Assembly: GCA_030831965.1 (NCBI GenBank)
Contig: JAURJZ010000015.1
Span: forward strand, 1 to 54,183
Source: Verrucomicrobiota bacterium
GTDB lineage: Bacteria; Verrucomicrobiota; Verrucomicrobiia; Opitutales; UBA953
Length of the DNA stretch: 54,183 nucleotides
Direction: 5' to 3'
Each line of letters starts with the position of its first letter. The stretch's first letter is position 1. Below are positions 3,297 through 7,211 of this stretch, piece by piece. The notes beneath the pieces are model-generated. The model made no database searches. It was not told the DNA's origin and was given only the letters and a program-made list of their open reading frames with translations. The position numbers were made by a program, and so were the translations under genes.

Positions 3297-3998
3297 ATGT
3301 CCCTGACCCTCCGACCCTCCGCCGAGCGCGGCCACTTCGACCACGGCTGGCTCAAGACCTGGCACAGCTTCAGCTTCGGCGACTACCACGATCCGGCCCA
3401 CATGGGCTTCCGGTCGCTCCGGGTGATCAACCAGGACATCGTCGTGCCCGGACGGGGCTTCCCCATGCACGGCCACCGGGACATGGAGATCTTCAGCTAC
3501 GTGGTCGAGGGCGCGATTGAGCACCGGGACAGCATGGGCAACCACGCCCGCGTCGTGCCCGGCCGGATCCAGGTGATGGGCGCCGGAACCGGTGTCCGTC
3601 ACAGCGAACACAACCCGCTGCCCGATCGCCCCATGCAGATCCTCCAGGTCTGGATCCTCCCGGAAAAGGCCGGGCTGCCGCCTTTCTACGCGGAGTGGAG
3701 TCCCACGACCGAGCAGCGCGCCGCCGCCAAGGCCCTGATCCTCTCGCGCGACGGTCGCGAGGGCTCGGCCCGACTCCGGCAGGATGCCGACGTCTACCGC
3801 CTGCTCGCCCCGGCTGGCACCCGCCTCACCCATGTGCTTCGCTCCGGTCGCGGATTCTGGCTCCAAGTCATCAAGGGCAGGGTTGAGGTCGGCGGCCAGG
3901 TGGCCGGCCCCGGCGACGGGCTATCGACGGAGGAGCCTGGGGCCATTGTTCTCGATGTGCTGTCCGATGCGGAGGGACTGCTGTTTGACCTCGCCTGA
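3297..3998 (+). CDS. pirin family protein (YhhW-like)
   Basis: The 233-residue bicupin protein shows the full pirin metal site: His58 and His60 in GFPMHGHRDMEIFSYV, then His102 and Glu104 in GTGVRHSEHNP. The related Escherichia coli YhhW binds metal and oxidises quercetin; the physiological role of bacterial pirins is otherwise uncertain (redox sensing and metabolic control have been proposed). The N-terminal RGHFDHGWLKTWHSFSFGDY block is diagnostic. The ATG at 3297 was chosen because the frame upstream (from 3246) translates the repeat block and resembles no pirin. There is no visible Shine-Dalgarno. Confidence 0.9.
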   Translation: MSLTLRPSAERGHFDHGWLKTWHSFSFGDYHDPAHMGFRSLRVINQDIVVPGRGFPMHGHRDMEIFSYVVEGAIEHRDSMGNHARVVPGRIQVMGAGTGVRHSEHNPLPDRPMQILQVWILPEKAGLPPFYAEWSPTTEQRAAAKALILSRDGREGSARLRQDADVYRLLAPAGTRLTHVLRSGRGFWLQVIKGRVEVGGQVAGPGDGLSTEEPGAIVLDVLSDAEGLLFDLA

Positions 3999-4028: not shown

Positions 4029-4511
4029 ATGAAAACCGCCACCACCGTCGTCGCCTCCCTCCTCGGCCTGATGTTCATCGTCTTCGGACTGAACTTCTGG
4101 CTCAAGTTCGCCCCCGTGCCTCCGCCCCCTGAGGGCACCCCGGCCGCCGCGTTCCTCGGCGCCATGTTCACCTCCGGCTACCTCGCCACGGTCAAGGCTG
4201 TCGAGGTCCTCGGCGGCATCGCCCTCCTCATCCCCCGCTTCCGCCGCCTGGGCATCATTCTGATCGCCGCCGTGGTCTTCAACATCGCGACCTTCCACGT
4301 GGCCTTCTTCGGCTGGGGCAGCCTGCTCGACGCCAAGGTCCTCTTCGCCATCGTCGCCTCCCTGTTCCTCGTCCGCATGCACGCCCTTTGCAGCTGCCTC
4401 TGCGGCTGCGGCACCTGCAACTGCGAGGGCACCGGCTGCTGCAACAGCGGCGCCTCCTGCTGCTCGACCGACAAGGCCGAGTCGAAGGGCGGCTGCTGCG
4501 GCGGGAACTGA
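4029..4511 (+). CDS. DoxX-like membrane protein with a 12-cysteine C-terminal tail
   Basis: The 160-residue protein has four predicted membrane helices (about 4-24, 50-70, 73-95, 99-117), with the pattern of DoxX/DUF4149-like small membrane proteins (VEVLGGIALLIPRFRRLG between helices 2 and 3). The last 40 residues are unlike a normal DoxX: 12 cysteines at 121, 123, 125, 127, 130, 132, 137, 138, 144, 145, 156 and 157, in CxC, CxxC and CC groups. This resembles a metallothionein or a thiolate metal/persulfide sink. It lies 30 bp after pirin and just upstream of an ArsR regulator and a rhodanese-rich CoA-disulfide reductase. Some DoxX relatives take part in sulfur oxidation; a role in thiol or metal stress is inferred. 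Confidence 0.7.
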   Translation: MKTATTVVASLLGLMFIVFGLNFWLKFAPVPPPPEGTPAAAFLGAMFTSGYLATVKAVEVLGGIALLIPRFRRLGIILIAAVVFNIATFHVAFFGWGSLLDAKVLFAIVASLFLVRMHALCSCLCGCGTCNCEGTGCCNSGASCCSTDKAESKGGCCGGN

Positions 4512-4560: not shown

Positions 4561-4600
4561 TTGACATGCCCCCAAATACATTCAATAATTTGAATATATG
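4561..4600 (+). promoter_or_regulatory. Sigma70-type promoter of the ArsR-like gene, nearly leaderless
   Basis: A perfect -35 TTGACA (4561-4566) is followed after 17 bp by the -10 AATAAT (4584-4589). The ATG (4598) begins 9 bp after the -10, so transcription should start within a base or two of the start codon. There is no room for a Shine-Dalgarno. It is an AT-rich patch in a GC-rich region. Confidence 0.75.
4580..4595. promoter_or_regulatory. Putative operator ATTC-N8-GAAT over the -10 element
   Basis: The sequence ATTCAATAATTTGAAT is an inverted repeat with 6-bp perfect arms (ATTCAA/TTGAAT) around TAAT. It covers the -10 hexamer, so a bound protein would block RNA polymerase. The ATTC-N8-GAAT form is the one I recall for the persulfide-responsive ArsR-family repressor SqrR. 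Autorepression by the adjacent ArsR-like protein is inferred. Confidence 0.65.
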
Positions 4601-4897
4601 ATTCAGGCCATCGATCCCAAGGTCCTCCGGCGCTGCGGCGCCGCCCTGCGGACGCTCGCCCATCCCGAGCGGCTGCGCCTCGTCGAGTCGCTCGAGCGCG
4701 GCGCCCGGTCGGTTGGCGAGCTGACCGCGATCCTGCGTCGTCCCCAGGCCACCGTCAGCCAGCACCTGATGCGGCTCCGCGCCCATGGTCTGGTCAAGGC
4801 CGACCGACGGGGCAGGGAGGTCCGCTACGCCATCGCCCAGCCCGGCTGCCTTTCCATCCTGGGCTGCATCCGCACCCACTTCGCCAAGTCCCGCTGA
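4598..4897 (+). CDS. ArsR/SmtB-family transcriptional regulator
   Basis: The 99-residue winged-helix protein contains LAHPERLRLVESLERGARSVGELTAILRR followed by the recognition helix QATVSQHLMRLRAHGLV and a beta-wing GREVRYAI. Its cysteines are Cys13, Cys84 and Cys90. It lacks the CxC of arsenic/cadmium sensors in helix 3 and lacks the helix-2 cysteine of BigR/SqrR, so its trigger cannot be read off directly; a Cys84/Cys90 site in the last helix (with Cys13) is possible. It is followed after 49 bp by the CoA-disulfide reductase-rhodanese gene, as ygaV precedes the rhodanese gene ygaP in Escherichia coli. A sulfane-sulfur or thiol-stress repressor is therefore my best inference. Confidence 0.88.
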   Translation: MIQAIDPKVLRRCGAALRTLAHPERLRLVESLERGARSVGELTAILRRPQATVSQHLMRLRAHGLVKADRRGREVRYAIAQPGCLSILGCIRTHFAKSR

Positions 4898-4946: not shown

Positions 4947-7211
4947 ATGTCCCACGCCAACTCCCCCCGCATTGTCATCATTGGGGGCGTCGCCGGCGGC
5001 GCCTCCGCCGCCACCCGCGCCCGACGGATGAACGAGCGCGCCTCCATCGTCATGCTCGAGAAGGACGGCCATGTGTCCTTCGCCAACTGCGGCCTGCCCT
5101 ACCACATCGGCGGCGCCATCCAGGACCGGGCCAAGCTCCTCGTGGCCAAGCCCGAGATGTTCCGCCGGCGCTTCAATATCGATGTCCGTGTGCGCCACGA
5201 GGCCCTTGCCATCGACCGTGCGGCCAAGGTGGTGCGCATCCGCGACCACGCCAAGGGGGTCGTGTACGACGAGCCGTATGACAAGGTCATCCTCGCCCCC
5301 GGCGCCGCCCCGCTCGTGCCCGACCTCCCGGGCGTCCGCGCCCCCGGGGTTCACTCGCTCCGCAACATCGAGGACATGGACCGCATCCTCGCCGACCTGC
5401 CGGGCGTGCGCCGCGCCGCCGTCGTCGGCGGCGGGTTCATCGGCCTCGAGGTCGCCGAGCAGCTGCGCGAGCGCGGGCTCGAGGTGAGCCTTGCCGACCG
5501 CAATGCCCAGGTCCTGACCCCGCTCGATCCCGAGATGGCCGAGCGCCTGCGTCGCGAGCTGCTCGCCCACGGCGTCCGGGTTCACCTTGGCTCCGGGCTG
5601 GCGGCGGTTGAGACCGATGCGAAGGGCCGCGCCTCCGGTGTCCGTCTGGAGGACGGCGCGATCATCCCCGCCGAGCTTGTCATCCTGGGCCTTGGCGTGC
5701 GGCCCTCCAACCGGCTTGCGGTCGAGGCCGGGCTCGACACGGGCCCGACGGGCGGCGTCCGGACCGACGCCTACCAGCGCACGAATGATCCCGACATCTA
5801 TGCGGTTGGCGACGCGGCGGAGTATTCGCTGGGCACGACCGGCGGCCGGGGGCGCGTTCCCCTTGCCGGCATCGCCAATCGCACCGGTCGACTTGCCGGC
5901 GAGCACGCCGCCACCGGCATGTCCGCGCCCGCGCCCGCGGCCTGGGGCACCGCCATCCTCAAGGTCTTCGGCGTCGCCGCCGGCATCACCGGCGACTCGG
6001 TGAAGTCCGCCAAGGCCCGCGGTCTCGATGTCCGGGCCGTTCACATCACCGCCAACCACCACGCCGGCTACTATCCCGGGGCCCAGTCCCTCACCTTCAA
6101 GCTGGTCTACGAGGCGGGTACCGGCCGCATCCTCGGCGCCCAGGCTTTCGGCGGCGCCGGCGTCGACAAGCGCCTGGACATCGTCGCCTCGCTCCTGCAC
6201 TTCCGCGGCACGGTCGCCGACCTTGCCCAGGTCGACCTCGCCTACGCCCCGCCCTTCGGGTCGGCGAAGGACGCCGTCCACATGGCGGCCTTCGCCGCGC
6301 TCAACGATCTTGCCGGACACGCGCCTGTCGCGGCGGTCGACGCCGACCTGGCCGGTTTCCAGGTGGTCGATGTCCGCGACCCCGACGAGCGGGCCCAGCT
6401 TCCCCTCGCCGGCGCCCCGCACGCCATCGCCATCCCGCTCAACGAGCTTCGGACCCGCGCCGGCGAGCTGGACCGGGCCCGCCCGACGGTCGTCGCCTGC
6501 CACAGCGGCCTGCGAGCGCACGTCGCCACCCGGCTCCTGCGCGAGCTGGGCCTTGACGCCCGCAACCTTTCCGGCGCGGCCTCCCTGCGCGACCTCGCCC
6601 TGAACCGTCCCTCCGCCGCCCCCGCGTCGGCGGCCTCCTCCTGCTCGGCCGCCAAGCCCTGCGGCGCGCCCGGCGGGACCGTCGCCCCCGATCCCCACGA
6701 CGAGCTTCATCCCCGCAATGTCCTCGCCGAGGCCGCCGGCGGCGCCCTGCTGCTCGATGTCCGCTCGCCCGCCGAGTACCGCTCGGGACACGTCGAGGGG
6801 GCCGTCAACCTGCCGCTCGACCAGCTCAAGCCCGGCGCGGTCAAGGCCCTGATGGGCGGGGGCGAGGACAGGGTTGTCCTGCTCCTGTGCGCGGCCGGCG
6901 GTCGCGCCCGCACCGCCGCCAAGCGGCTCGAGGGCTCAGGCGTCAGGTCCGTGGTCGTCGCGGGCGGCACCAACGCCTGCGTCGGCGCCGGGCTGCCCAT
7001 CCGGAAGCTCAAGGGGGCCGTGATCTCGATCGAGCGCCAGGTCCGCATCGGGGCCGGCCTGATGGTCGCCGCCGGGGTCGCGCTCGGCACCTGGGTCCAT
7101 CCCGGCTTCCACGGCCTCAGCGGCTTCGTCGGCTGCGGCCTCGTCTTCGCGGGTGTGACCGACTTCTGCGGCATGGGCCTGCTTCTCGCCCGCATGCCTT
7201 GGAACCGATGA
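4947..7211 (+). CDS. CoA-disulfide reductase fused to two rhodanese domains and a DUF2892 membrane tail
   Basis: The 754-residue protein has five parts. Residues 8-320 are an FAD/NAD(P)H pyridine-nucleotide-disulfide oxidoreductase with one active cysteine, Cys48, in FANCGLPYHIGG. Residues 330-445 are the dimerisation domain with Tyr375/Tyr376 and YAPPFGSAKD. Rhodanese 1 spans about 460-550 with catalytic Cys518 (CHSGLRA). A short linker holds CSAAKPC. Rhodanese 2 spans about 590-680 with Cys648 (CAAGGRA). The tail 695-754 is YgaP-like (ISIERQVRIGAG ... MPWNR) with two membrane helices. Relatives reduce CoA persulfide or polysulfide. Translation is taken from ATG 4947; the open frame upstream overlaps arsR and is not homologous. 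Confidence 0.9.
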   Translation: MSHANSPRIVIIGGVAGGASAATRARRMNERASIVMLEKDGHVSFANCGLPYHIGGAIQDRAKLLVAKPEMFRRRFNIDVRVRHEALAIDRAAKVVRIRDHAKGVVYDEPYDKVILAPGAAPLVPDLPGVRAPGVHSLRNIEDMDRILADLPGVRRAAVVGGGFIGLEVAEQLRERGLEVSLADRNAQVLTPLDPEMAERLRRELLAHGVRVHLGSGLAAVETDAKGRASGVRLEDGAIIPAELVILGLGVRPSNRLAVEAGLDTGPTGGVRTDAYQRTNDPDIYAVGDAAEYSLGTTGGRGRVPLAGIANRTGRLAGEHAATGMSAPAPAAWGTAILKVFGVAAGITGDSVKSAKARGLDVRAVHITANHHAGYYPGAQSLTFKLVYEAGTGRILGAQAFGGAGVDKRLDIVASLLHFRGTVADLAQVDLAYAPPFGSAKDAVHMAAFAALNDLAGHAPVAAVDADLAGFQVVDVRDPDERAQLPLAGAPHAIAIPLNELRTRAGELDRARPTVVACHSGLRAHVATRLLRELGLDARNLSGAASLRDLALNRPSAAPASAASSCSAAKPCGAPGGTVAPDPHDELHPRNVLAEAAGGALLLDVRSPAEYRSGHVEGAVNLPLDQLKPGAVKALMGGGEDRVVLLLCAAGGRARTAAKRLEGSGVRSVVVAGGTNACVGAGLPIRKLKGAVISIERQVRIGAGLMVAAGVALGTWVHPGFHGLSGFVGCGLVFAGVTDFCGMGLLLARMPWNR

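Follow-up and report, generated by a model that had tools for sequence, protein, structure and literature searches.

Within the window analysed here, a 54,183-nucleotide stretch of DNA from a Verrucomicrobiota bacterium, we found a gene for a DoxX-clan membrane protein that ends in a Cys-rich tail, and this tail is kept by selection, so that a chemical role at the inner membrane side is very likely. DoxX proteins occur widely, and quinones or oxidants induce some of them. Our favored reading, which we put forward tentatively, is that the protein belongs to an electrophile/quinol-stress module at the inner membrane and that its tail is a thiol redox or electrophile cluster; binding of a soft metal competes closely with it. 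It would be unusual for a bacterial membrane to anchor a metallothionein-like sequence, and as a natural fusion of core and thiol-rich tail maintained by selection, the protein offers a single-protein handle on DoxX-like chemistry and on the question of thiols versus metal.

A predicted four-helix core joined to a Cys-rich tail

The tailed gene (Table 1) is single-copy in its source genome (1.85 Mb, 98% complete). The initial annotation had described 12 cysteines in the last 40 residues, arranged in CxC, CxxC, and CC groups and preceded by a four-helix membrane core, and all of these elements were present: the tail contains CxC (CSC, CLC, CGC, and CNC), CxxC (CGTC), and three CC pairs, residues 1 to 112 contain no cysteine, and the AlphaFold2 model places four membrane-length helices (residues 2–25, 51–67, 69–94, and 102–117) ahead of the tail. 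Under a Cys background of 1%, a value we assumed rather than took from this genome, the probability of at least 12 cysteines in 40 residues is ∼4e-15. Phe, Trp, Tyr, and His are absent from the last 35 residues. Block means of pLDDT were 73 to 92 across residues 1 to 120 and fell below 50 in residues 121 to 160, which are predicted to be disordered. Mean counts of Lys plus Arg were higher at the N terminus (1.67), in loop 2 (2.13), and on the C-terminal side (1.40), and lower in loop 3 (0.60) and in the long loop 1 (1.13 over 25 residues, a low value per residue). Because of this distribution, both ends of the protein are probably cytoplasmic, and the earlier suggestion that the tail lies on one side of the membrane now has a predicted side, the cytoplasm, which rests on these counts.

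Table 1 Features of the window around the tailed gene
Feature	Position	Strand	Basis
Tailed DoxX-like gene	4029–4511	+	ORF, 160 aa, single-copy
DoxX-clan membrane core, residues 1–120, four predicted TM helices	4029–4388	+	AF2, hhalign, homologues
Cys-rich tail, residues 121–160, 12 Cys, predicted cytosolic, plus stop codon	4389–4511	+	Composition, purifying selection, alignment
Pirin (quercetinase-like bicupin)	3297–3998	+	Pfam Pirin 4.3e-33, Pirin_C_2 8.8e-22
Hairpin, 12-nt stem, just past the stop codon	4529–4556	.	Inverted repeat
Sigma-70-like promoter of the next unit, TTGACA-17-AATAAT	4561–4589	+	11/12 consensus matches
AT-rich palindrome, ATACATTCAA-N4-TTGAATATAT	4576–4599	.	10-nt arms, 90% complementary
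ArsR-family repressor, first gene of the adjoining unit	4598–4897	+	Pfam HTH_5 1.8e-11
Flavoprotein, presumably CoA-disulfide-reductase-like, with two rhodanese domains and YgaP-like membrane anchor	4947–7211	+	Pfam Pyr_redox_2, Rhodanese (two stretches), Pyr_redox_dim, YgaP-like_TM

The description of the core as DoxX-like stood at the level of the family but not for the window protein alone, which had no Pfam or NCBIfam match; likewise, none of the 15 tailed members matched PF07681 at E up to 0.1. When 56 tailless relatives were searched against Pfam at the same threshold, 12 matched DoxX (best 2.4e-7), four DoxX_2, and one MauE. An hhalign comparison of an alignment made from tailless relatives only with one of 12 canonical DoxX proteins including Escherichia coli YqjF spanned 119 columns (E 9.3e-6, probability 83%); a smaller set of relatives gave 39 columns and a probability of 11.5%. 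We class the core with the DoxX clan and not as a PF07681 member. A fold search of the PDB yielded nothing meaningful (best E 0.76), and we put the sole PDB sequence match, to a viral spike protein (E 0.019), down to chance similarity of its Cys-rich end.

The tail is conserved and under purifying selection

Our homologue search covered 57 relatives, 18 of which had a match. The tailed gene was present in 16 of these 18, all within the window's own family, f1, a group of Opitutae metagenome-assembled genomes described as freshwater bacteria. Of the other two matching genomes, one (G056) contains two tailless relatives, and the match in the other (G008) was a transporter found by chance, which we dropped. 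In G003, the tailed gene is split over two contigs and present as fragments only, and L025, which comprises the core only, does not enter the tail counts. The tail was present in all 15 full-length members that we aligned. Its cysteines number 9 to 12 throughout the tailed group, and Cys residues were retained more often than other tail residues (74% versus 43%), a difference that leans upward because the tail alignments were guided by the cysteines.

We measured dN/dS in 10 pairs, nine of which were informative; the tenth (L023/L024) had no replacement change. Values ranged from 0.05 to 0.59 in the tail and from 0.10 to 0.35 in the core, with the tail above the core in three pairs (window/L021, L033/L034, and L030/L031), equal to it in one (L035/L036), and below it in five. 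By the initial annotation, its reading would fail if close homologues lacked the tail and it arose only by a local frameshift; because each of the 16 genomes with the tailed gene has it, and it is also under purifying selection, we exclude a frameshift or an assembly artefact. It could still be argued that the tail, as a low-complexity extension of the C terminus, has little function and is tolerated because it is cytosolic and disordered, and its varying length and Cys positions, an insertion in the L021 tail, the poor retention of its non-Cys residues, and its predicted disorder would all suit such an explanation. We consider this improbable because every one of the nine informative pairs had a tail dN/dS below 1, with values of 0.05 to 0.13 in four of them, and because cysteines are kept in every member, with C123, C127, and C157 invariant.

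Two irregularities in the assemblies of relatives were seen along the way. The start of the L027 contig (positions 1–90) resembles sequencing adapter joined to the gene, a probable assembly artefact in that genome, and N stretches within the L022 and L030 contigs interrupt neighboring genes.

The tail was probably gained once

With a profile built from the 15 members, we found matches in 116 of 384 class genomes; in a phylum sample that overlaps with the class set, 41 of 288 genomes matched. Among 74 distinct proteins extracted, one of them cut off by a contig end, 15 had 9 to 12 cysteines past the fourth helix, and 58 had 0 to 2. That DoxX proteins normally lack such a tail, as had been proposed, was thus borne out in all 58 tailless relatives and in 48 of 52 canonical DoxX proteins, which have none. 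In a tree built from the core only, the 14 tailed rows fell on one side of a single branch (support 99/94), requiring one change. Because the core tree recovers this one clade, whose members all belong to one bacterial family, a single gain of the tail, in the ancestor of genera g1 and g2, is probable. One tailless relative (L069 of G332, 4057–4473) carries two cysteines, which form a CxxxC in its C terminus FCALACPAKDASSS, at the membrane edge where the long tail begins; this end is possibly an intermediate of the tail. Searched by itself in 38 relatives, the tail matched only the DoxX-like gene, in six genomes; the search had low sensitivity, as 5 of the 11 tailed genomes among these relatives escaped it. 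A plasmid search gave no match.

Pirin and CDGSH genes are the older neighbors

The pirin gene lies 30 bases upstream of the tailed gene in the window and is its probable operon partner. Across the 17 tailed loci (16 genomes), pirin was found upstream at 11, either directly or across a CDGSH gene. Two loci (L023 and L027) begin at the tailed gene, so their upstream sequence is not visible, and four others (L022, L024, L025, and L026) have visible upstream sequence without pirin; counted by genome, pirin is missing beside the gene in 4 of 15 tailed genomes with visible upstream sequence. At eight of nine g2 loci with pirin (L028–L035), a gene for a double-CDGSH protein of ∼79 residues is located between pirin and the tailed gene, and the one such protein tested matched Pfam zf-CDGSH at 2.6e-16. 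Among the matches listed from the open-licence literature, no title pointed to a paper on a bacterial pirin–CDGSH gene pair. At L029, a divergent LysR gene (Pfam) extends the order to LysR–pirin–CDGSH–DoxX; in the window, LysR is not adjacent to the tailed gene. At 40 tailless loci, pirin occurred at 8, with LysR beside it at 6 of these, and the CDGSH gene of the tailed loci occurred at none.

Counted over the 37 genomes of f1, the CDGSH gene was present in 15 of 16 tailed versus 1 of 21 untailed genomes (Fisher p 2.6e-8), an association confounded by phylogeny (p 0.11 within g2 alone). In the sole untailed genome with CDGSH (G022), the CDGSH and pirin genes sit at the edge of a contig, a position at which the DoxX-like gene could have dropped out. 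The g1 genomes carry their CDGSH gene elsewhere, for example on contig C63 in G000. Pirin, at an E value of 1e-20, was found in 13 of 16 tailed versus 4 of 21 untailed genomes, and in G003 and G005 it was a distant one on another contig. Pirin, CDGSH, and, in relatives, the divergent LysR are the older neighbors of the tailed gene, in an arrangement resembling E. coli YhaJ–YhaK–YqjF.

The downstream genes probably form an independent unit

The initial annotation had also suggested that the tail might hold persulfides, and a role in holding or passing them together with the adjoining ArsR and reductase/rhodanese genes would draw on the position of these genes directly downstream of the tailed gene in the window and in L021, on the rhodanese and YgaP-like domains of the flavoprotein, and on the association of mycobacterial DoxX with the sulfurtransferase SseA reported in a review (PMC7662651). 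A hairpin, a promoter, and a palindrome separate the two units. The hairpin is also present in the sister locus L021 (740–765); because no T run follows it, and a scan for terminators with a required T run found none, it is only a likely terminator. Two promoter sites were found in this region versus 0.1 expected, and the palindrome, judging from its position, is a probable ArsR operator. The reductase gene is on the opposite strand in L023, L024, and L027, and no homologue was found near the tailed gene at the nine g2 loci (L028–L036), which leaves these genes as neighbors in the window's genus only. Because the adjoining genes look like a separate unit, probably independent of the DoxX unit, and are neighbors in one genus only, the suggestion is weakened; we rejected a persulfide operon as the main setting of the tail, and we regard a persulfide function as a whole as quite unlikely.

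A second Cys-rich tail occurs on canonical DoxX

The eight genomes of a sister genus, g3, in the homologue search lack the tailed gene, and four of them (G007, G011, G017, and G020) encode a canonical DoxX with a Cys tail of its own. These tails (L136, L137, L139, and L140) contain four to six cysteines, for example SCCNAKCACC and CKCPDCAC, and the two proteins tested matched PF07681 at 2.1e-17 and 1.9e-18. An AhpC/TSA-type (peroxiredoxin) gene, with Pfam checked for one locus, follows DoxX at two of the four loci (L168 and L170). Among 52 canonical DoxX proteins resolved from 55 loci, only the four from g3 had at least four tail cysteines; a further protein (L154) also has four cysteines among its last 40 residues, but these seem to lie in the membrane part. 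Cys tails on two different DoxX-type cores in one family suggest convergence, toward a function that involves thiols or metal, with the caveat that the g3 tail is short and the sample small. An extension that we hold to be doubtful is that DoxX proteins work through a cytosolic partner thiol, which would have been fused to the core twice independently, in g1/g2 and in g3, with the tail, a thiol-rich redox buffer tethered to the membrane, taking oxidizing equivalents from quinones and passing them to the core. If this were true, DoxX chemistry would be laid open in one polypeptide.

Thiol chemistry and metal binding

Metallothioneins have a Cys content of about 20 to 30%, CxC, CxxC, and CC groups, and few aromatic residues. 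The tail, which had been called metallothionein-like, agrees with this in composition (12 of 40 residues are Cys, and the last 35 contain no aromatics) but not in sequence, as none of 13 tails matched any Pfam family at E up to 1 and the tails had no match among PDB sequences. Judged by title, no paper in the open-licence literature searched dealt with a DoxX protein with a Cys-rich or metallothionein-like tail, and none paired DoxX with CDGSH. The tail may be a membrane-tethered, metallothionein-like site for a soft metal (Zn, Cu(I), Cd, or As(III)), which would buffer or deliver metal or provide it for iron–sulfur repair. Its 30% Cys, with neither aromatics nor His in the last 35 residues, points this way, as does a Cys number that is kept (9–12) while positions shift, which a multimetal cluster predicts; the co-occurring CDGSH protein is itself a metal-cluster protein, and many CC pairs without aromatics suit metal binding equally well. 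Set against this are the missing match to any metallothionein family or structure and the neighborhood, in which we saw no metal exporter by eye in the neighbor lists, nor any among the conserved neighbors. We judge metal binding possible, though less probable than the reading we favor.

In that favored reading, the tail would be a disordered, cytosolic, membrane-tethered cluster of 9 to 12 thiols. At the inner face of the membrane, quinones and other oxidants of thiols would react with its cysteines or trade electrons with them, and the cysteines would be recycled by way of the DoxX core. The [2Fe-2S] CDGSH protein and pirin would act as partners; we infer the cytosolic side and each of these chemical steps. 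A role for the tail as a stand-in for glutathione was not supported: glutathione synthetase had no match in any of the 14 tailed genomes searched, and tailless genomes mostly lack it too (no match in 15 of 20). The module is placed in quinol/electrophile stress because of its likeness to E. coli, an analogy that concerns a canonical DoxX and not the window's subfamily. In E. coli K-12, yqjF (DoxX), yqjG (glutathionyl-hydroquinone reductase), yhaJ (LysR), and yhaK lie within 5 kb. According to a published study, both yqjF and yhaK are under the control of YhaJ, yqjF is known to be induced by hydroquinone and catechol, and its induction is stronger when yhaK is lost (PMC5031710).

Comparison with known systems

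Like bacterial and eukaryotic metallothioneins, the tail is ∼30% Cys, has CxC, CxxC, and CC groups, and lacks aromatics; unlike them, it is fused to a membrane protein and matches no family in sequence. With canonical DoxX (PF07681; E. coli YqjF), the window protein shares a predicted four-helix membrane core, and its group shares the pirin and LysR neighbors seen in E. coli, whereas it falls below Pfam detection and carries a 40-residue Cys-rich tail. A parallel in gene content is the E. coli YhaJ–YhaK–YqjF response to quinols and nitroaromatics (PMC5031710), in which LysR, pirin, and DoxX genes likewise occur together; the window differs in having no adjacent LysR, most g2 relatives add CDGSH, and the tail is found here. 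Finally, the mycobacterial DoxX–SseA–SodA membrane complex, in which DoxX and SseA take part in thiol recycling according to a review (PMC7662651), also links a DoxX protein with the oxidation and recycling of thiols; next to the tailed gene, we recognized neither SodA nor SseA, and here the thiols are on the DoxX-like protein itself.
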